Assembly: GCA_017559185.1 (NCBI GenBank)
Contig: JAFYSU010000051.1
Coordinates: 1 to 64,000, forward strand
DNA: 64,000 bases
Direction of reading: 5' to 3'
Source: Oscillospiraceae bacterium
GTDB lineage: Bacteria > Bacillota > Clostridia > Oscillospirales > Ruminococcaceae
A model generated the notes under the pieces. That model saw only the letters and a list, made by a program, of their open reading frames with translations. It was not told the origin of the DNA and did not search any database. The first letter of the stretch is position 1; every line of letters begins with the position of its first letter. Positions 20,207 to 46,496 of this stretch are shown one piece after another. The position numbers were made by a program, and so were the translations under genes.

Positions 20207-23200
20207 TTAGATTTCAACGATACCTTCGTATACCAGTTCAGCTCTGCCGGTAAGCAGTACAGTCTGGTCTGTGTAACGAACTATCATGTCGCCGCCTTTG
20301 CTGCGAACTGTGATATCTTCACCTTTACGGCAGTATCCGTTTTCAACCGCTGCAACTACAGCTGCGCAAGCACCTGTACCGCAAGCAAGTGTTTCACCGT
20401 TGCCGCGTTCCCATGTACGCAGTTTGAGAGTGTTGCGGTCGATAACCGAAACAAACTCAGTATTAATGCGTTTAGGGAATATTGTTGCATTTTCAAATGC
20501 GGAACCGCGTTTTTGAATATCCATGGTTTCAACATTATCATGGAATACCACACAATGCGGATTACCCATAGATACACATGTAATGGAGTACAGCTTGCCG
20601 TCAATTTCAACCGGACGGTCAATAACCTTGTCACCGTCAAGTTTTACAGGCAGGTTTTTAGGATTGAAGTCAGGCTGTCCCATATCAACGGTTACAGAGT
20701 TAACTTTACCGCCGCGGGTATATACACGAACCTCACGAATACCGCTGAGGGTTTCAATGTGCATAACATCTTTTTTGCAGAAGCCGTTGTCGTAAAGGTA
20801 TTTAGCAACGCAGCGAATGCTGTTGCCTCCCATTTTTCCCTCGCTTCCGTCACGGTTAAATGTACGCATTTTTGCATCCGCAACATCGGAACGGCAGATA
20901 AGCACAAGACCGTCTGCACCAATTCCGTAATGCTGGTCGGTAAGTGTAACACTGAGAGATTCAGGGCTGGAAACTTCCTGATGCCAGCAATCGAAGTAGA
21001 TGTAGTCGTTACCGCAGCTCTGCATTTTTGTAAATTTAAGCTGCATTTTTTCCTTACGCATGCTGTTGATGTCAACAAGCTCGGTGTTGCTTTCGCTGTG
21101 ACGGCTGATAAGGCTGTTTGCCAAAGCATTTGCAGTATCAATGGAAGTAAGGCATGGGATGGCCAGCTCAACCGCTTTACGGCGAATTTTTACGCTGTCA
21201 CGGTTTGGCAGTCTGCCTTTGGAGGAAGTGGAAATGATGTACTGCACCTTTCCGCTTTCAAGCAGTGTAATTGGGTTGATGGAGGATTCATGAACCTTGC
21301 CGATTTCCTCAACATCAAGACCTGCTTTGCGAAGTATGCTTGCAGTACCTTTTGTGGAGTACAGCTTAAAGCCAAGTTCGGCATAGCGTTTTGCAGTATC
21401 AACGATTTCTTTTTTATCGCTGTCTTTAACTGTAATGAATACGCCGCCTTTTTTCTCCATTTTGTAGCCTGCGGCAATCATGCCCTTGTACATAGCTTCG
21501 CTGAGTGTTGTACCAATACCCAAAACCTCACCTGTGGACTTCATTTCAGGTCCGAGCTGAACATCCACATCAAGCAGTTTTTCAAAGGAGAATACAGGCA
21601 CTTTTACCGCTACATAAGGCGATGTTTTGTAAAGACCTGTACCCCAACCCATATCTTTGAGTTTTTCACCCAGCATAGCACGGGTTGCAAGGTCTACCAT
21701 TGGAACGCCTGTTACCTTGCTGATGTAAGGGATTGTACGGGAAGAACGAGGGTTAACCTCGATTACATAAATGGTGTTTGCATGGATAACATACTGAATG
21801 TTCACCAGACCCTTTGTGCCCAAGGAAAGTGCAAGGTTTTTGGTATGCTCAATGAGTTTTTCGGTAAGCTCACCTGTCAAATTCCATGCAGGGTAAACAG
21901 CAATCGAGTCACCGGAGTGAATACCTGCACGCTCAACATGCTCCATTACACCAGGAATAAGAATATCTTCACCGTCACAGATTGCGTCTACCTCAATTTC
22001 GGTACCCATGAGGTATTTATCAATCAGTACAGGGTTTTCAATGTTCTGTGCAAGAATAATTTTCATGTATTCACGAATATCATCATCACAGAACGCAATA
22101 ATCATATTCTGACCGCCAAGTACATAGGAAGGACGCAGCAGAACAGGATATTCCAATTCTTTTGCAGCTTTAAGCGCTTCATCCAATGTCATAACGGTGT
22201 GTCCGGAAGGACGAGCAATATCAAGCTTTTCAAGCAGAGCATCAAAGCGTTCTCTGTCCTCAGCCATGTCGATACATTCACCGGTTGTACCGATAATGCT
22301 AACATTCTGAGATTCAAGGAATTTTGTCAGCTTAATAGCAGTCTGACCACCGAATGCAACTACAACACCCACAGGTTTTTCTGTTTCGATGATGTTCATT
22401 ACATCTTCCGGAGTCAGTGGTTCAAAGTACAGACGGTCTGCTGTATCAAAGTCGGTGGAAACGGTTTCTGGGTTGTTGTTTATGATAACTACCTCGTAAC
22501 CTTTTTCCTGAAGTGCCCATACACAGTGAACGGAAGCGTAGTCAAACTCAATACCCTGACCGATACGAATTGGACCGGAACCAAGAACGATAACGGTTTC
22601 TTTTTTGTTTTCACGCTGGTCAAGGAACTGTTCAGCTTCGTTTACTTTGTCGTATGTGGAGTAGAAGTAAGGTGTCTGTGCATCAAATTCTGCTGCACAG
22701 GTATCAACCATTTTAAAGCCTGCGTGTACAGGTTTGGTAATTTCCTGTCCGGAAAGACGAGCAATTACCTTATCAGGGAAACCAAGCTTTTTAGCTTCAA
22801 GGTAAAGCTCATCGGTCAAGGTTTCTTCTGTCAGACAGCGTTCCATTTTAACAAGGTTATTAAGCTTGCTCAGGAACCATTTGTCAATCTTGGTAATATC
22901 GTAAATGTACTGTGCTTCAATACCGCGTTTAAGTGCTTCGTAAACCACAAACAAGCGCAGGTCGTTGCAGTCGGAAAGTTTTGCACGAATTTCATCATCG
23001 GTATATGCCTGCAAGGATTTAAGTGTCAGGCAGTCCATGGAAATTTCGGCACCGCGAACAGCTTTCATAATAGCAGACTCAAAGTTCTGAGCAATAGCCA
23101 TTACTTCACCTGTTGCTTTCATCTGTGTGCCAAGTTCTCTTTTAGCGTAAACAAATTTATCAAACGGCCATTTTGGGAACTTAACAACAACATAGTCAAT

Positions 23201-24247
23201 AGCAGGCTCGCAGCATGCGTATGTAGTGCCTGTAACGGCATTTTTAATTTCATCAAGGGTATAGCCGATAGCAATTTTTGCAGCAACCTTAGCAATTGGA
23301 TAACCTGTTGCTTTGGAAGCCAATGCAGAGGAACGGGAAACACGAGGGTTAACCTCGATTACAGCATATTCCATGCTTTCAGGATGCAGCGCAAACTGGC
23401 AGTTACAGCCGCCTTCAATGCCCAAAGCATTTACAATGCTGATAGCTGCTCCGCGGAGCATATCAAATTCTCTTGTGGAAAGTGTTACTGCAGGAGCAAG
23501 AACGATACTGTCGCCTGTATGTACGCCTACAGGGTCAAAGTTTTCCATGGAGCAGATGGAAATGGTATTTCCGTTGCTGTCGCGCATCATTTCAAACTCG
23601 ATTTCTTTCCAGCCGGCAATACATTTTTCAACAAGAATCTGATTAATTGGGGACTGGCGCAGACCACCTGTTGCAATTGTGTGGAATTCTTGGTCGTTAT
23701 GCGCAATACCGCCGCCGCTGCCGCCCAGTGTAAAAGCAGGACGAATAATTACAGGGAATCCTATCTGATGTGCAAATTCGGTAGCCGCCTCAATGTCGGT
23801 AACTACTTTGGATGGAATACATGGCTGATTAATGGACTCCATGCAATCCTTAAAGGACTGACGGTCCTCTGCCTTGTCAATTGTTTCAGGTCTTGCACCA
23901 AGCAAGGTTACACCGTGTTCTTCCAAAAAGCCTTCTTTAGCAAGCTGCATTGACAGGTTCAGACCTGTCTGACCGCCAAGTGTGGACAACAGACTGTCCG
24001 GTTTTTCTTTTATGATGATTCGTTTAACTGTTTCAATGGTAAGCGGCTCAATATAAACATGGTCAGCCATTGCATTGTCGGTCATAATGGTAGCAGGGTT
24101 GGAGTTAATAAGAACTACCTCAAGACCTTCTTCCTTCAATGCGCGGCAAGCCTGTGTTCCCGCATAGTCAAACTCTGCCGCCTGACCGATAACGATTGGA
24201 CCGGAGCCGATTACAAGTACCTTTTTAAGAGATTTATTCAACGGCAT
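20207..24247 (-). CDS. carB-dapF: Carbamoyl-phosphate synthase large subunit fused to diaminopimelate epimerase
   Basis: One open frame of 1346 residues. Residues 1 to about 1067 are a complete CarB: first ATP-grasp half (GSGPIVIGQAAEFDY, residue 14), second half (GSGPIRIGQGIEFDY, about 565) and a C-terminal MGS-like domain (about 935-1060). From Met1068 (base 21046) a full 279-residue DapF follows, which in other bacteria epimerises LL- to meso-diaminopimelate for lysine and cell wall. In the DapF part the second catalytic Cys (TLACGTGAC) is present, but the first is Gly in KMGGNSIRC. An AAGGA just before codon 1068 might allow internal initiation. Follows carA with one base between. Confidence 0.95.
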   Translation of the reverse strand: MPLNKSLKKVLVIGSGPIVIGQAAEFDYAGTQACRALKEEGLEVVLINSNPATIMTDNAMADHVYIEPLTIETVKRIIIKEKPDSLLSTLGGQTGLNLSMQLAKEGFLEEHGVTLLGARPETIDKAEDRQSFKDCMESINQPCIPSKVVTDIEAATEFAHQIGFPVIIRPAFTLGGSGGGIAHNDQEFHTIATGGLRQSPINQILVEKCIAGWKEIEFEMMRDSNGNTISICSMENFDPVGVHTGDSIVLAPAVTLSTREFDMLRGAAISIVNALGIEGGCNCQFALHPESMEYAVIEVNPRVSRSSALASKATGYPIAKVAAKIAIGYTLDEIKNAVTGTTYACCEPAIDYVVVKFPKWPFDKFVYAKRELGTQMKATGEVMAIAQNFESAIMKAVRGAEISMDCLTLKSLQAYTDDEIRAKLSDCNDLRLFVVYEALKRGIEAQYIYDITKIDKWFLSKLNNLVKMERCLTEETLTDELYLEAKKLGFPDKVIARLSGQEITKPVHAGFKMVDTCAAEFDAQTPYFYSTYDKVNEAEQFLDQRENKKETVIVLGSGPIRIGQGIEFDYASVHCVWALQEKGYEVVIINNNPETVSTDFDTADRLYFEPLTPEDVMNIIETEKPVGVVVAFGGQTAIKLTKFLESQNVSIIGTTGECIDMAEDRERFDALLEKLDIARPSGHTVMTLDEALKAAKELEYPVLLRPSYVLGGQNMIIAFCDDDIREYMKIILAQNIENPVLIDKYLMGTEIEVDAICDGEDILIPGVMEHVERAGIHSGDSIAVYPAWNLTGELTEKLIEHTKNLALSLGTKGLVNIQYVIHANTIYVIEVNPRSSRTIPYISKVTGVPMVDLATRAMLGEKLKDMGWGTGLYKTSPYVAVKVPVFSFEKLLDVDVQLGPEMKSTGEVLGIGTTLSEAMYKGMIAAGYKMEKKGGVFITVKDSDKKEIVDTAKRYAELGFKLYSTKGTASILRKAGLDVEEIGKVHESSINPITLLESGKVQYIISTSSKGRLPNRDSVKIRRKAVELAIPCLTSIDTANALANSLISRHSESNTELVDINSMRKEKMQLKFTKMQSCGNDYIYFDCWHQEVSSPESLSVTLTDQHYGIGADGLVLICRSDVADAKMRTFNRDGSEGKMGGNSIRCVAKYLYDNGFCKKDVMHIETLSGIREVRVYTRGGKVNSVTVDMGQPDFNPKNLPVKLDGDKVIDRPVEIDGKLYSITCVSMGNPHCVVFHDNVETMDIQKRGSAFENATIFPKRINTEFVSVIDRNTLKLRTWERGNGETLACGTGACAAVVAAVENGYCRKGEDITVRSKGGDMIVRYTDQTVLLTGRAELVYEGIVEI

Positions 24248-24248
24248 A

Positions 24249-25313
24249 TCAGTGTTCCCCCTCCATCAGGCTTACAAATTCGTCATAGCAATATCCGGCA
24301 AGACCTTCAGGATTGAACTGTACGGAAAATGCAGGAATATTGTTGTATTTAACACCCTCACAAGAGCCATCGTTCACATTTACATATGTAACCTCTGCAT
24401 TGCTTGGCAGAGTGTCAGCTTTAACAGCATAACCATGATTTTGTGCGGTAACAAATACTTTGTTGTTTTTAATGTCCTTAACAGGCTGGTTAGCACCACG
24501 ATGACCGTATTTAAGCTTGTATGTTTCAGCACCCTGAGCCAATGCCAGCAGCTGGTGACCCAAGCTAATGCCAAAAACAGGTACTCCCGCTTTGCAAAGC
24601 TGTGCTACCTGCTCGATAACCTGTTTGTTTTCGGCAGGGTCAGCAGGACCGTTGGACAGCACAACACCATTTGGTGCCATTGCCAAAATTTGTTCGGCTG
24701 TTGTGTTGTAAGGCACCTTAACCACTGTACATCCGCGGTTTACAAGCTCGTTTACAACGCAAGCTTTTGTACCGAAATCCATCATAACTACTTTGTGTTT
24801 TGCATCTTCTGCGCTGTATTCAGCAGCTTCTTTACAGCTTACAGCTTGTACCGCATCGCAAATTTTGCAGGCAGCAAGTTCGTTTGCAATTTCCTGTGCT
24901 TTTTCGGCACTGTCGGTAATTTTAGCGTTCATAACACCTTCGCGGCGAATAATTTTTGTAAGCTCACGAGTGTCTACATCGTAAAGACCGATAATGTTTT
25001 TTTCCTTCAAAAAAGCGTCAAGAGTTCCTTCACAGCGAAAATTTGAAGGTTCCTGACACCACTCTCTAACGATATACGCTTTTACATGGGAGGAATCGCT
25101 TTCAAAATCAGCCGAAATTACACCATAGTTACCAATAGCCGGAAATGTTTGAACTACCATTTGACCATAATAACTTGGGTCTGTCAAAGTTTCCAAGTAT
25201 CCTGTCATTGCAGTTGTAAACACGATCTCGCCGGTAATTTCTCCGTCAGCACCAAATCTTTTCCCCTGAAAGACCTGTCCGTTTTGCAGGACCAGATATG
25301 CCGTTTTTTCCAT
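24249..25313 (-). CDS. carA: Carbamoyl-phosphate synthase small subunit with degenerate glutaminase site
   Basis: CarA normally hydrolyses glutamine and passes ammonia to CarB for arginine and pyrimidine synthesis. The fold is clear over 354 residues, with the N-terminal CarA domain and a class I amidotransferase domain. The catalytic cysteine is serine (GISLGHQ, Ser250, codon AGC), the catalytic histidine is asparagine (QFNPEG, Asn334, codon AAT), and GPGDP reads GPADP. I infer it cannot hydrolyse glutamine, so the complex would use free ammonia. The ATG at 25313 follows AGGAGGG. The frame stays open 33 codons further upstream, but without support. Confidence 0.94.
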   Translation of the reverse strand: MEKTAYLVLQNGQVFQGKRFGADGEITGEIVFTTAMTGYLETLTDPSYYGQMVVQTFPAIGNYGVISADFESDSSHVKAYIVREWCQEPSNFRCEGTLDAFLKEKNIIGLYDVDTRELTKIIRREGVMNAKITDSAEKAQEIANELAACKICDAVQAVSCKEAAEYSAEDAKHKVVMMDFGTKACVVNELVNRGCTVVKVPYNTTAEQILAMAPNGVVLSNGPADPAENKQVIEQVAQLCKAGVPVFGISLGHQLLALAQGAETYKLKYGHRGANQPVKDIKNNKVFVTAQNHGYAVKADTLPSNAEVTYVNVNDGSCEGVKYNNIPAFSVQFNPEGLAGYCYDEFVSLMEGEH

Positions 25314-26260: not shown

Positions 26261-27520
26261 TTACTGAACTTTGTTCTTTTCTCTTGCCTGAACAGTTTTC
26301 TTCCAAGCATACAAAGCCAATGTAACAGCAATAATGCCGTAAGCGATAAATACACGGAAGTATTCACCAAGCTCGGCACTGCCGAAGATGTTTTTACCTG
26401 CCATTGGGGATACATTAAACAGTACATGGAACAGGATTGTACCCATGATAGCCTGTCCAACAGTAGCCTTGGAAACAGATGCACCACCAATGAGGAGTGC
26501 CGCTGCCGAGAACATACCAACATTTTCGTGAGCGCTGTATGTGCTCATGTTGCCCAAGTTCTGCAGGAAGATAATCTGACCAAAGGATGCCAAAACGGTG
26601 GAAATGCAAGTAGCAATGATACGGGTTTTGTCAACATCAATACCCGCAACGGATGCAACCTTCATGTCCTGACCAACAGCACGCATGTCCTGACCAAGCT
26701 TTGTTTTAAGGAAAGCAGGAACAAACATGCAAAGCAGTGCAATCAAACCAAATGTAACCATTGGAATTTGGCAGAGGGCTTTCATCTTCTTGCAAGCATC
26801 TGCATGGCTTGCCCAGAAGCAAATTACAAAGATTGCCGCAAACACTGCAATGTTAACAACTGTGCGAACCTTTGTTTTGTCAGTTCTTTTCAGCAGTTTT
26901 ACAGCGTTGATGATAAGGAAAATCAACGAGAAAATAATACCTGCTGTGAAGATGTCCATTTTCCAAATGTTATCAATGGCATATTTAAGATTGTTAAGGT
27001 TTACTGCACTTCTTACACCTATGCCGGAATCAAGCATGATACCCGGAGCATCGATTGGAATTATACCGCCCCAAACGAACAGCAGCAGGAACTGATAAAC
27101 CCCCGATGCAAAGAAGCCAAGAATCATACTGGTAATCATTTCACTGCCTTTGGTGTTGTTAAGCAGTTTACCTGTAAGCCAGCCAAGGAATACAGCCAGC
27201 GGAACAGAAAGTGCGCTTGCTGCAATTACAGCCGACAGACCGTTCATACCTGCAACACACACAATCAGCAAAGAAATCTGACCTGCCATTGCACCAAGAA
27301 CGATACCAAAGTTAAGACCCAAGCCTGTAAGAATTGGAATAATAAGGGAAATAACCAGAAATGCGTTTCGGCTAAAGCGGGAAATAACGTCCATCATAAT
27401 AATGGAAGGAGCAGAACCGGAAAACGCAACACCAATCATACAAACGATAATAAATACGATTGGAACTATGTTGGAAACCATAAAACCTTTGATTTTATTC
27501 ATTCCGTTGGATTTAGGCAT
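26261..27520 (-). CDS. ABC importer permease, nucleoside/BMP type (second permease)
   Basis: Integral membrane permease of 419 residues with about ten hydrophobic segments, of the branched-chain/ribose-type permease superfamily used by nucleoside importers such as NupQ. GLGLNFGIVLGAMAGQIS (about residue 75) and the GGASVSKATVGQAI segment near residue 330 are typical. I place the start at ATG 27520 after GGAGG; it overlaps the end of the first permease by eight bases. Expected to pair with the gene at 27513-28565 as a heterodimer. Confidence 0.88.
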   Translation of the reverse strand: MPKSNGMNKIKGFMVSNIVPIVFIIVCMIGVAFSGSAPSIIMMDVISRFSRNAFLVISLIIPILTGLGLNFGIVLGAMAGQISLLIVCVAGMNGLSAVIAASALSVPLAVFLGWLTGKLLNNTKGSEMITSMILGFFASGVYQFLLLFVWGGIIPIDAPGIMLDSGIGVRSAVNLNNLKYAIDNIWKMDIFTAGIIFSLIFLIINAVKLLKRTDKTKVRTVVNIAVFAAIFVICFWASHADACKKMKALCQIPMVTFGLIALLCMFVPAFLKTKLGQDMRAVGQDMKVASVAGIDVDKTRIIATCISTVLASFGQIIFLQNLGNMSTYSAHENVGMFSAAALLIGGASVSKATVGQAIMGTILFHVLFNVSPMAGKNIFGSAELGEYFRVFIAYGIIAVTLALYAWKKTVQAREKNKVQ

Positions 27521-28565
27521 CGCCTTCACCTCCAGACTGTGTCAACGCATACAAAATGATACCGTTGGACACTACAATACGAATTACTTCGGACAAGCCG
27601 CCTTCTGGCATAAGCTGGTTTGCAACCGGCAAAGCAATTGTCAGCAATGCTTGGAACAGGAATGTACCCAAAATTACATGAGAAATTTTGCACACTCTGC
27701 CTGTTGCACCACCCAAAAGAACAGCAGCAACCGGTGGGAATGCCATGTTCAAAGGAGCATTGTACAGCTGGTAAAAACCAAAGCTTTGTGCATAAACAAT
27801 AATACCTACAGCACCCAGAACAGTAGAAAGGATTGTACCAATCATTCTGGATTTTTTAACGCTGATACCGGAAGCTACTGCAAAGCGTGGGTTGTCACCT
27901 ACAGCTTTAAGGCAGATACCTGTTTTGCTGCGGGAGAACAAGTACACCAAACCGCATGCAATCAGACCGAACAGGATAAGACCTGTAGGAACTGTAACGC
28001 CGCCGATTTCGAAAGCAAAAAGATTGTTGAGGATACCGTCATAGTTATCACTCAAGGTAATTGTGGAACGCAGACCAGAGCCGGAACCACCGATAGGCCA
28101 TATCATTGCAGGGTCTTTAAATGGCAGAATAAGCCAACCCATACACATCAAGGATACAACAGCGTAACCAACATATGTTCCTACCATCATTTCGTCGCCC
28201 TGTACAGCATTGATAAGCTTACCGTAAAGGTAACCTGCAGCAATTGCCAAAGGAATGGCAATAACCATTGCCATAACAAGACCAACGCCGCCTCTAAAGC
28301 CAATTTCAATACTTACAAGACCACCCAAAATACCGCAAAGCAAACCAACAGGCAAACCGTAGTTCATGCCGGTACCTGCCATTACAGCAGGAAGCATTGC
28401 CAAGGACAGTACCATATTCATACCAAAACGAACAAGAACGTCACTTGCAAGAGTGCCCATGTTTTGCTGCTGAACAACAGCAAGGATAATCAAAACAAAC
28501 AGGAATGCAACGATGATTATACGAGGCAAACCAATAGCCTTAATATTTTTCTTCAGCTGTTCCAT
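27513..28565 (-). CDS. ABC importer permease, nucleoside/BMP type (first permease)
   Basis: Integral membrane permease of 350 residues with eight to ten hydrophobic segments, similar to the NupP/YufP side of nucleoside importers. A GTGMNYGLPVGLLCGI segment (about residue 65) and AVGDNPRFAVASGI (about 235), the cytoplasmic coupling loop, are visible. It starts three bases after the stop of the ATPase gene, and an AAGGA lies 13 bases before the ATG. Encoded as a unit with the other permease. Confidence 0.88.
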   Translation of the reverse strand: MEQLKKNIKAIGLPRIIIVAFLFVLIILAVVQQQNMGTLASDVLVRFGMNMVLSLAMLPAVMAGTGMNYGLPVGLLCGILGGLVSIEIGFRGGVGLVMAMVIAIPLAIAAGYLYGKLINAVQGDEMMVGTYVGYAVVSLMCMGWLILPFKDPAMIWPIGGSGSGLRSTITLSDNYDGILNNLFAFEIGGVTVPTGLILFGLIACGLVYLFSRSKTGICLKAVGDNPRFAVASGISVKKSRMIGTILSTVLGAVGIIVYAQSFGFYQLYNAPLNMAFPPVAAVLLGGATGRVCKISHVILGTFLFQALLTIALPVANQLMPEGGLSEVIRIVVSNGIILYALTQSGGEGDA

Positions 28566-28568
28566 GCC

Positions 28569-30161
28569 TTATTCACCGTCCTTTCCCGAAATACCGCTCA
28601 TTGCCATACCGAATTTAGCATCGGAATCATCCGGCTTAAGAATATCTGTAATTTTACCGCCTGTTACAATAGCGATACGGTCACAAATAAGACGCAGCTC
28701 TGCCAATTCGGAAGATGTCATGATAACAGTAAGTCCGTATTCTTTGTTAAGCTTAACAACTGTATCAAGAACCAGACTCTTCGCACCAACGTCAATGCCG
28801 CGGGTAGGCTCGGAAATGAGCAGTACATCAGGCTGAAGCAGCAGTGCTCTTGCAATGCACACTTTCTGCTGGTTACCACCGGACAAGCGTCTTACAGGCT
28901 GTGTTGGACCTGTGCAGCGAATATCAAGTTCTTTAATGTAATTTTCCGCATTTTTACGGATAGCATCGGCATCATACTGTGACATGAAGCCGAATTTTTT
29001 CAAAAATCTGTTCTGGTTTACAATCGCAGGGATAACCATATTCATTTCAATGGATGTATCCGGAATAAGACCAACGCCGCGTCTGTCTTCGGAAACAAAG
29101 CTCAGCTTAGCTTCAATGGAAGCCTTCGGATTGTTCAGAGTAAGTTTTTTGTCCCCAACCATGATTTCACCTTCGGTTGGATAAATACCCATCAAGCCGT
29201 TTGCAACGCCAATTTTACCCTGACCTGCCAAACCGCCCAAACCAAGAATTTCGCCTTTGTAAACATCAAGGTCAAGACCGCGAACAACTTCGCCCGGCAT
29301 TGCAACCTTCATATTTCTTATGGACAAAGCAACTTTGCTTGTGTCAATTTTAGCGGATTCTTCCTTCTGGGAAAGGTCAATTTTACGACCAACCATAAGT
29401 TCAGCAATGTGTTCCATGGTTGTGTCTTTTTTGTTCAGAGTGGTTATCCAAGTACCGTCACGCATGATAGTAACTTTATCCGCTGCATCGATAACTTCGT
29501 CCAGTCTGTGGGAAATAAACAGGATGCCAACGCCTTCAGCTGCAAGCTTTTTCATTGCAGCAAGCAGGCTGGCTGCTTCACTTTCGGTCAAAACAGCAGT
29601 AGGTTCGTCAAATACAAGTACTTTTACATTTTCCTTGTCAATTTCACGCGCAATTTCAATAAACTGCATGTAACCTACAGGAAGACCTGCAACAGGAATG
29701 TCCTCGTCAACATCAAGACCAAGCTTGTCCAATGCTGCACGGGAATCACTTTTCATTTTATCTTCGTCAAGCTTTTGAAGCTTTTTGCCAAAAATAGTAC
29801 TGAGCAGACCGTTTTTACGGGGTTCTCTGTTCAGCTTAATGTTTTCTGCAATGGAAAAACCGGGAATAAGCATAAATTCCTGATGCACCATGCCGATACC
29901 AAGTTTCATTGCATCGGATGGATGCTTAATGCTTACCTGTTCGCCATCCATAGATATAGTACCGGAAAAACCACCGGTATTGTGAATTACAGGCATACCG
30001 AACAAAATGTTCATAAGTGTGGACTTACCCGCACCGTTTTCACCGCATATAGCGTGAATTTCACCAGGCATAACTTCCAAGGAAACGCCCTTCAAAACCT
30101 TGTTGCCATAGTATGCCTTTTCGATGTTTTGCATCGAAAGTACAGGGGTGTTTTCGTTCAA
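28569..30161 (-). CDS. ABC importer ATPase with two nucleotide-binding domains
   Basis: Cytosolic energy-coupling subunit of 530 residues made of two ABC domains. The first has Walker A GENGAGKSTL (about residue 40) and a DEPTAVL Walker B. The second has a degenerate P-loop (GLAGQGKIG) but an intact LSGGNQQK signature and SEPTRGID, the usual asymmetry of sugar and nucleoside importers (NupO, RbsA). The start is TTG at 30161 after a GAGGCGG site. Transcribed with the two permeases. Confidence 0.93.
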   Translation of the reverse strand: MNENTPVLSMQNIEKAYYGNKVLKGVSLEVMPGEIHAICGENGAGKSTLMNILFGMPVIHNTGGFSGTISMDGEQVSIKHPSDAMKLGIGMVHQEFMLIPGFSIAENIKLNREPRKNGLLSTIFGKKLQKLDEDKMKSDSRAALDKLGLDVDEDIPVAGLPVGYMQFIEIAREIDKENVKVLVFDEPTAVLTESEAASLLAAMKKLAAEGVGILFISHRLDEVIDAADKVTIMRDGTWITTLNKKDTTMEHIAELMVGRKIDLSQKEESAKIDTSKVALSIRNMKVAMPGEVVRGLDLDVYKGEILGLGGLAGQGKIGVANGLMGIYPTEGEIMVGDKKLTLNNPKASIEAKLSFVSEDRRGVGLIPDTSIEMNMVIPAIVNQNRFLKKFGFMSQYDADAIRKNAENYIKELDIRCTGPTQPVRRLSGGNQQKVCIARALLLQPDVLLISEPTRGIDVGAKSLVLDTVVKLNKEYGLTVIMTSSELAELRLICDRIAIVTGGKITDILKPDDSDAKFGMAMSGISGKDGE

Positions 30162-30309
30162 AATAAATCGCCGCCTCGCTTAATGATTCAATAGATTACT
30201 AAAACGTGTTTTCTTTCTTCTTTACAGCTGCCCTTCCAAGTAAGCAGCTTTTTGCACAAATGCTCAGCGCAATAACACTCTTGTGTGTTAATCCTAAAAA
30301 CAAACATCA

Positions 30310-30337
30310 CGCCACAGGGAGTAAATCGCCTGTGGCG
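30310..30337 (-). terminator. Intra-operon hairpin between binding protein and ATPase genes
   Basis: Perfect nine-base stem CGCCACAGG / CCTGTGGCG followed on the minus strand by TGATGTTTGTTTTT. Placed to let the binding protein be made in excess over the ATPase and permeases. Confidence 0.7.
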
Positions 30338-30392
30338 CAATGGCTTAACGATGTTTTAAGCACCGTTTAAATTCAACTTTGTAATAAGCTGA

Positions 30393-31658
30393 TTATGCAG
30401 CAGCTTCTTCAGTTGCAGCAGCTTCTTCAGCTGGAGCTTCTTCAGCAGCAGCTTCTTCGGTTGCAGCAGCTTCTTCAGCTGGAGCTTCTTCTGCAGCAGC
30501 TTCGCCACCGAAGGTGTAGAAGTTGCCAAGCAGTACGAAGAAGTTGTCATAAGTTACGCCAGCTTCTTCAAGTTTCTGAACAACTACTGGACCGCCTGCG
30601 ATTTCAGCACAGATGTCAGTCATAGCAGCCATGTCAGCTCTTTCGGTAATCTGACCGTCGAGGTATGCCTGAGCGTATTTAACGCCAGCTTCAACGAACA
30701 GCATGTTTACAGGAACAGTCCATGTGGACATACGGCCTGCGTTGCCAGCTTCAACAACTTTTTTGGTTGTTTCAGCAAGGATGAATTCTACATCGCCAGC
30801 TTTGTCATCTGGAATTTCGATGCCGAGTGCACCTGGGTAGCCATGGTATGGGCTTGGGCAGCACTGCTGAGGCATGATAGCACCACAAGCGAGAACCTGT
30901 TTGATGAGTGGTTCCTGCATAGCGCAGTTTGTGGAGAAGAATGCGGTGTCTTTACCGTATTTGTCAACCATTTTTGGAACATCTTCCAGAATGAACTGCT
31001 GAGCACCTGGAACGCCTGCGTCACCTGTTGGGTCTGGAGCGTTAGCTTCAACGAACTCGATACCCAGTTCAGCACATTTTTCTTTCATCAGGTCACGACG
31101 GCCGGACAGCAGAGCTACGCCCATGTGACGTGGGAAAGAGTAGTGTACGAAAGTTTTAGCGCCCATTTTAGCAGCCTGTTCAACTACAGCGTAACCCATG
31201 CCGAGTTCGTCTGCGTTAAGAACGATGTCTGCTGCTGGGGAGATAAGGGATGGGTCTTCACCGGAAACACCAGCGATAACCAGCAGGTCAGGTTTGATTT
31301 CTTTTGCTTTTTCGATAGCAGCAGTTGCACCTGGAACAGCCTGAAGGAATACGAGAGCTTTTACAGCGTCATCGGAAACCAGGTTTACAGTGTTGGAAAT
31401 TGTTGTTTCCTGTTCTTTGGAGAAGTTATCTGGGTATGTTGCGGTAACAATCATATCCGGATAAGCTGCTTTCAGTTTTTCAGCAGCGCGGAATTCTTCC
31501 TCACCCTGAGAAACTGTGCCGGTGATGATAGCAATTTTGTAGTCTGCAGCAGCTGCGCCTTCAGCTGGTGCTTCAGCTGGAGCTTCAGCTTTGCCGCCGC
31601 AAGCAGCCATGGACAGAGCCATAGTCATGGACAGCATGAATGCCAATACTCTTTTCAT
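30393..31658 (-). CDS. DUF3798 substrate-binding lipoprotein
   Basis: Secreted lipoprotein of 421 residues from ATG 31658 (AGGAGG upstream). The signal peptide ends in a lipobox LSMAAC with Cys20 as the lipid site. The mature part resembles DUF3798 proteins, which have a periplasmic-binding-protein-like fold. It starts the operon of the ABC importer, so it probably captures the solute, perhaps a nucleoside by analogy with the permeases. Its C terminus is a low-complexity Ala/Glu/Pro tail of about 36 residues encoded by a 48-bp tandem repeat. Confidence 0.85.
   Translation of the reverse strand: MKRVLAFMLSMTMALSMAACGGKAEAPAEAPAEGAAAADYKIAIITGTVSQGEEEFRAAEKLKAAYPDMIVTATYPDNFSKEQETTISNTVNLVSDDAVKALVFLQAVPGATAAIEKAKEIKPDLLVIAGVSGEDPSLISPAADIVLNADELGMGYAVVEQAAKMGAKTFVHYSFPRHMGVALLSGRRDLMKEKCAELGIEFVEANAPDPTGDAGVPGAQQFILEDVPKMVDKYGKDTAFFSTNCAMQEPLIKQVLACGAIMPQQCCPSPYHGYPGALGIEIPDDKAGDVEFILAETTKKVVEAGNAGRMSTWTVPVNMLFVEAGVKYAQAYLDGQITERADMAAMTDICAEIAGGPVVVQKLEEAGVTYDNFFVLLGNFYTFGGEAAAEEAPAEEAAATEEAAAEEAPAEEAAATEEAAA
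30397..30492. repeat. Two 48-bp tandem repeats in the DUF3798 gene
   Basis: Units 30397-30444 and 30445-30492 differ at only two positions, with a partial third copy after them. Each encodes a 16-residue EEAPAEEAAATEEAAA-type unit at the C terminus. Confidence 0.95.
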
Positions 31659-31697
31659 TGCGAATCCTCCTAAAAATTTCTTTCTTTTGAACATTTC

Positions 31698-46257: not shown

Positions 46258-46288
46258 AAAAAAGGGCGTGCCAACCATTGGCACGCCC
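46258..46288 (-). terminator. Riboswitch-controlled terminator before gcvT
   Basis: Eleven-base perfect stem GGGCGTGCCAA / TTGGCACGCCC with a three-base loop and six T on the minus strand. Placed directly after the second glycine aptamer, as expected for a transcriptional ON switch. Confidence 0.93.
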
Positions 46289-46290
46289 TG

Positions 46291-46465
46291 TATACTACCT
46301 GAAAGATTCTCCCGCTTTTAACGGGATTGCTTCTTCGGCGCATTCCTTACGGCTGATGCCAATGGAATGACTTTCCAGAGTTTCGTCCAGATTCGGTCCT
46401 TTTGCCTGAGAGTTTATTGCGTTTACACCTTCGGCGCTGCACCAGCAGTCTCTCCCGAATCCTTC
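46291..46465 (-). promoter_or_regulatory. Tandem glycine riboswitch
   Basis: Two glycine aptamers in series on the minus strand. Aptamer 1 (about 46391-46465) has GGGAGAGA, GCGCCGAAGG and CTCTCAGGCAAAAGGACC. Aptamer 2 (about 46293-46388) has TCTGGA, GCGCCGAAGAAGCAA and TCTTTCAGGT. These are the conserved cores of the class. Glycine binding should prevent the following terminator and switch on its own degradation pathway. Confidence 0.95.
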
Positions 46466-46496
46466 AATCGAAAAAATTATGTAGCTTATATCAAAA

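Follow-up and report, generated by a model that had tools for sequence, protein, structure and literature searches.

In E. coli carbamoyl-phosphate synthase (CPS), Cys269 and His353 of the small subunit CarA are essential for glutamine hydrolysis. Ammonia serves this enzyme only when its concentration is high, probably beyond the physiological range, and reviews name glutamine as the nitrogen source of E. coli CPS, a statement extended to all bacterial CPSases (PMC6245113). Vertebrate CPS I retains an inactive glutaminase fold in which Ser stands for the catalytic Cys: in human CPS1 (PDB 5dot and 5dou), Ser294 occupies this position, glutamine is unusable, and ammonia is taken from solution, probably via an alternative path (PMC4655335). 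A likeness among gut prokaryotes is the 41-kDa CPS of Methanobrevibacter smithii, described as having two synthetase domains and no glutaminase subunit (Popa et al. 2012, cited in PMC6022934); it differs from a full-length CarB, whether paired with a dead CarA or alone, in being one small archaeal ATP-grasp chain that works as a dimer. The full-text literature that we searched, which left subscription papers mostly out of scope, contains no description of a naturally occurring bacterial CarA whose triad is lost and none of a full-length bacterial CarB lacking CarA.

The locus described here lies in a stretch of 64,000 nucleotides (hereafter the window) of contig JAFYSU010000051.1 from an Oscillospiraceae bacterium (assembly GCA_017559185.1). 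Its carA gene (24249..25313, minus strand, with ATG at 25313 and stop at 24249), called by profile and model, encodes a CPS small subunit of 354 amino acids with a dead glutaminase site. Alignment to E. coli CarA revealed that codon 250 (AGC, 24564..24566, minus strand) places Ser at the position of the catalytic Cys (E. coli C269), and that codon 334 (AAT, 24312..24314, minus strand) places Asn at that of the catalytic His (E. coli H353). Codon 224 (GCT, 24642..24644, minus strand) puts Ala where GPGDP has an invariant Gly (E. coli G243), and codon 336 (GAA, 24306..24308, minus strand) keeps Glu, the third triad residue (E. coli E355). The window motifs read GISLGHQ, FNPEG and SNGPADP, versus the canonical GICLGHQ, FHPEA and SNGPGDP. 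These observations confirm the three substitutions and the codons given in a preliminary description of the locus; its claim that the triad was lost held only in part, as two of the three residues (Cys and His) are gone while Glu336 is present, and the GPADP change affects the second Gly of the motif, which is not a triad residue. This Gly is nevertheless invariant in 106 of 106 distinct canonical CarA relatives, defined as those having Cys, His and Glu together (Cys being thus present by definition), which argues against Ala224 being drift at a loose position. Other residues of the glutamine site (S47, G222, L251, H253, Q254, N292, H293 and G294) are kept.

Membership of the CarA family is met by score, with a full-length match of 426.4 bits to TIGR01368 (curated cut-off of 307.35) and 437.6 bits to NF009475, and the Pfam domains CPSase_sm_chain and GATase were both found across the full protein. 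When the residue tests of the TIGR01368 family are applied, the catalytic Cys and His fail and the triad Glu passes. The AlphaFold model (pLDDT of 90.6) superimposes on E. coli CarA 1cs0_B with a TM score of 0.95 and on human CPS1 with TM scores of 0.86-0.88, and the closest PDB match is the E. coli C269S mutant 1c30. The window protein keeps 98.1% of conserved columns in its N domain and 82.9% in its GATase domain.

Window CarA is 41-42% identical to its E. coli counterpart and shares its fold. Ser250 and Asn334 correspond to the laboratory mutants C269S (1c30/1c3o) and H353N (1a9x), the His to Asn change being identical to that in chain B of 1a9x. In contrast to wild-type E. coli CarA, which is an active glutaminase, the window protein combines both changes with the Ala in GPGDP. 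The parallel with CPS I drawn in the preliminary description also held, given Ser294 of human CPS1 (PMC4655335), yet the two enzymes differ in several respects. CPS1 consists of a single fused polypeptide that N-acetylglutamate activates, whereas the window enzyme has separate subunits and does not share this fused organization. Unlike CPS1, window CarA has lost the His as well as the Cys, and use of ammonia by the window enzyme is unproven. Gln318 of CPS1 blocks the old ammonia tunnel, whereas the window has Ala274 at that position (E. coli G293), like 90 of the 106 canonical relatives; a CPS1-like block by a bulky residue at this site was tested in window CarA and is absent. We assume that the window enzyme and CPS1 arose independently.

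In line with the operon named in the preliminary description, carA is followed immediately by carB, the TGA stop of carA lying 1 base before the carB ATG, and the two are separate ORFs. The carB portion (21050..24247, minus strand; 1447 bits against TIGR01369) encodes a complete synthase subunit as part of a fused ORF. It keeps 99.1% of 442 conserved columns, with four deviations (T230S, Q262D, F346C and L923M). We checked 16 residues that we take to be catalytic on the basis of the E. coli literature; all are present in window CarB, both ATP-grasp active sites are intact, and the same 16 residues are invariant across CarBs associated with a canonical, a dead or no CarA. In another difference from E. 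coli CarAB, CarB is fused in frame at its C-terminus to DapF, a diaminopimelate epimerase (20207..21046, minus strand; 268.8 bits against TIGR00652), the product being a single ORF of 1346 amino acids (20207-24247, minus strand). Among loci with full CarB, the fusion is present in 50 of the 61 that have a canonical CarA and in 23 of the 35 that have a dead one. Since dapF retains its own ATG with AAGGA upstream, separate initiation of DapF is possible. Upstream of carA lie ABC transporter genes (26261-31694, minus strand) for two permeases, a duplicated ATPase and a binding lipoprotein; nucleosides are a possible substrate, suggested by resemblance alone. Elsewhere in the window (46282-46467, minus strand) we found two glycine riboswitch aptamers in tandem (RF00504; 66.9 and 36.5 bits).

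The window genome is a 1.58-Mb draft metagenome assembly, 86% complete, and no relative of the same genus is available in our comparison set. Our search detected one CarA and one CarB in it. The second, intact carA that the preliminary description proposed to look for was not found in this 86% complete genome, from which an intact copy could have been missed. The genome has a PyrE-like gene and two genes for carbamoyl transferases, so the cell probably needs carbamoyl phosphate. A PF00117 search matched CarA, GuaA and HisH only, and the last two retain the Cys motif, indicating that the loss is specific to CarA in this genome; a genome-wide decay of glutaminase sites was rejected on these grounds.

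Loss of the catalytic residues extends well beyond the window. The Cys, the His or both are missing from 11 further CarAs among the 80 closest loci of named genomes; nine of the corresponding genomes carry a dead CarA only, and two (L052 and L077) also have a canonical CarA. We then turned to the window's order, sampled by 394 genomes. A non-Cys pattern followed by blastp verification yielded 20 degenerate CarAs, window included, and the canonical Cys-motif pattern matched 225 genomes, although these matches were not individually read. Of 80 order genomes without a canonical match, 40 have a CarA, nearly all of them degenerate; two are canonical variants that the motif pattern missed. The tally for the order, in which the remaining genomes were only partly tested, amounts to about 40 genomes with a dead CarA only, three with both dead and canonical CarAs and 37 with CarB and no CarA. 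Several of the dead-CarA-only genomes are 95-99% complete. A class-wide scan detected, in other families, more CarAs in which Gly or Asp replaces the Cys. Relatives sharing the loss, which the preliminary description had suggested might form a clade, are thus spread far wider than one clade, the loss being repeated in the order and the class. In 69 distinct degenerate CarAs, the Cys is lost in 66, the His in 56 and both in 53, and the residue replacing the Cys is Gly in 54 cases, Ser in 8, Ala in 2, Asn in 1 and Asp in 1. Matches to GVGLGHQF in family f24 were rejected upon reading of the ORFs, which encode the GTPase Obg and not CarA, and several further pattern matches were discarded as unrelated reading frames.

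The 37 order genomes with a complete CarB have no CarA detectable by PF00988, a search that recovered CarA in 14 of 14 controls. Like the window, they have a complete CarB and no working CarA; unlike the window, CarA is wholly absent, and the CarBs of their pyrC-carB-pyrK operons form a separate clade, about 49% identical to window CarB. Where CarA-less loci offer enough sequence, carB often follows a dihydroorotase gene directly and precedes a pyrK-like gene, and we read this pyrC-carB-pyrK neighborhood in several genomes. CarA-less loci include L277-L281, L286, L288, L290, L294 and L296, in genomes G642, G749, G670, G593, G701, G765, G743, G570, G661 and G580; those among them with neighbors read have carB adjoining a dihydroorotase gene and, in most cases, a pyrK-like gene. 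No carA or amidotransferase gene was found beside carB in the CarA-less loci read, one of which (L283) has argF and other arginine genes around carB instead. The CarA-less CarBs cluster together with six dead-CarA CarBs, a canonical CarB standing at the side of the clade; this composition agrees with a succession from canonical to dead to absent CarA within it. Carbamoyl-transferase genes are present in 26 of 26 genomes tested, and some relatives have neither CarA nor CarB.

Two lines of analysis bear on how dead CarAs evolve. Canonical CarAs keep 97.6% of conserved columns in both domains, and dead CarAs 83.9% in the N domain and 70.8% in the GATase domain. The median pairwise dN/dS of dead CarAs is 0.079 for the N domain and 0.128 for the GATase domain, compared with 0.048 and 0.068 for canonical CarAs. 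Relaxation is thus mild and purifying selection is clear at the sequence level. When canonical versus dead-or-absent CarA is mapped on a CarB tree (FastTree), 13 state changes are needed, at least 8 of which are forced by supported branches; shuffled CarA states require 38.6. A quick CarA tree needs 7 changes, at least 4 of them forced. Because regain of a full triad is unlikely, we read most state changes as independent losses. Non-functional CarA has therefore originated repeatedly and independently in the order, as judged by sequence.

We also looked for matching changes in CarB. The divergent pyrimidine-operon clade confounds a scan for association between CarB columns and CarA state; we retained only positions 262 and 346, which vary in separate lineages that neighbor canonical ones. 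CarBs with a canonical CarA have Q262 in 60 of 61 cases and F346 in 61 of 61, and varied residues replace both in several separate dead-CarA lineages, including the window; Lys262 is found in 16 of 18 CarA-less CarBs. In the E. coli structure, positions 262 and 346 lie near the ammonia gate (C232 and A251), whose residues are almost unchanged. An adaptive role of these two positions is a possibility that we offer as a lead only, since the association is partly confounded by kinship.

The residue losses, the single copy in searched genomes, the intact CarB and the CarB-only genomes are established by sequence. The likely interpretation, for which activity is inferred in the absence of biochemistry, is a recurrent conversion of bacterial CPS to ammonia dependence, CarA becoming non-catalytic and sometimes being lost. 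In this model, the CPS of the window operon would be unable to hydrolyze glutamine, the Cys nucleophile and the His base of CarA being gone. CarA is predicted still to fold; translated from a ribosome-binding site of its own immediately before CarB, it would probably still dock on CarB as a structural and conformational subunit. This structural role is inferred, although the earlier suggestion that the small subunit is kept for structure gains support from purifying selection and from the well-predicted CarA fold. CarB would supply the arginine and pyrimidine pathways with carbamoyl phosphate, drawing on bicarbonate, 2 ATP and free ammonia entering from solution; as the donor in vivo, ammonia is inferred, and the ammonia-dependent synthase claimed by the preliminary description is supported as a reading but not shown. 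Given that E. coli CPS performs poorly with ammonia, either the kinetics must have improved here or the supply of ammonia must be ample. Among these Clostridia-like bacteria, in the order and its class, the route would lead from canonical CarAB to a pseudo-glutaminase CarA, and elsewhere to CarB without CarA. Adaptation to ammonia-rich niches is likewise an inference: a gut-ammonia link is plausible, but the proposed connection with an ammonia-rich gut and glycine cleavage is not shown, the tandem glycine riboswitch being only circumstantial, and the record titles of dead-CarA genomes do not all name a gut source.

A bolder reading, which we also consider likely, is that the order, with cases elsewhere in the class, repeatedly made its CPS ammonia-dependent with matching changes at CarB 262 and 346, CarA either turning into a pseudo-glutaminase or being deleted to leave CarB alone in a pyrimidine operon. 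If true, this would constitute a bacterial parallel to the vertebrate transition from CPS II to CPS I, with all stages still present. The enzyme itself is known, and so is this type of switch from vertebrates; in bacteria it is new as far as can be checked, and recurrent.

Several other explanations could be put forward. Ammonia might be made in trans by another glutaminase or amidotransferase and handed to CarB, glutamine then feeding the enzyme indirectly. GuaA and HisH of the same genome are indeed intact glutaminases, and a free glutaminase is not excluded. However, no amidotransferase gene adjoins carAB in the window or lies beside the CarA-less carB in the loci read, and PF00117, the only glutaminase family searched, gives nothing but CarA, GuaA and HisH in the window genome, which makes this supply unlikely. 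Retention of a serine nucleophile, Ser250 hydrolyzing glutamine by a rearranged mechanism, has in its favor that Ser is chemically possible and that Glu336, Gln254 and most glutamine contacts are kept. We find it very unlikely given that the His is replaced too, that most dead relatives carry at this position Gly, which cannot act as a nucleophile, that Cys269 and His353 are held essential in the E. coli literature (PMC6245113), and that CPS1 with Ser does not use glutamine (PMC4655335).

It is also conceivable that the dead CarA is an early pseudogene in a pathway decaying towards arginine and pyrimidine auxotrophy, considering that some relatives lack both CarA and CarB and that the evolutionary rate of dead CarAs is about double that of canonical CarAs. 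Such decay is very improbable: frames are open without internal stops in every search row reporting it, dN/dS of dead CarAs is well below 1, the window N domain keeps 98% of conserved columns, the CarB catalytic residues are invariant, and carbamoyl-transferase genes occur in all 26 genomes tested. Finally, an error of sequencing, binning or strain mixture at the Cys and His codons could be suspected in a draft genome that is 86% complete and has no same-genus relative for comparison. There is very little to recommend this view, as two catalytic codons and a third, invariant Gly are changed while the N domain remains 98% conserved, and the same kind of loss is seen in dozens of other genomes.

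Recurrent conversion to ammonia dependence thus remains our preferred reading. In roughly a fifth of the 394 order genomes (about 40 dead-only and 37 CarA-less), no glutaminase-competent CarA was detected. Automatic annotation still names such genes "glutamine-hydrolysing", and nitrogen flow would therefore be wrongly drawn in metabolic models of these bacteria. The repeated independent losses provide natural replicates for asking which changes in CPS allow good use of ammonia, and why a dead small subunit is retained or dropped.

Two minor observations were made in dead-CarA genomes. Besides another dead CarA, genomes G490, G514 and G563 (loci L248, L250 and L251) each encode a second, highly divergent CarA-like protein, with 24-29% identity to window CarA and likewise without the Cys and the His. 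In two other dead-CarA genomes (G399 and G397, loci L144 and L146), the CTP synthase reads GICLGMH versus the usual GICLGMQ, a change from Gln to His near the catalytic Cys.
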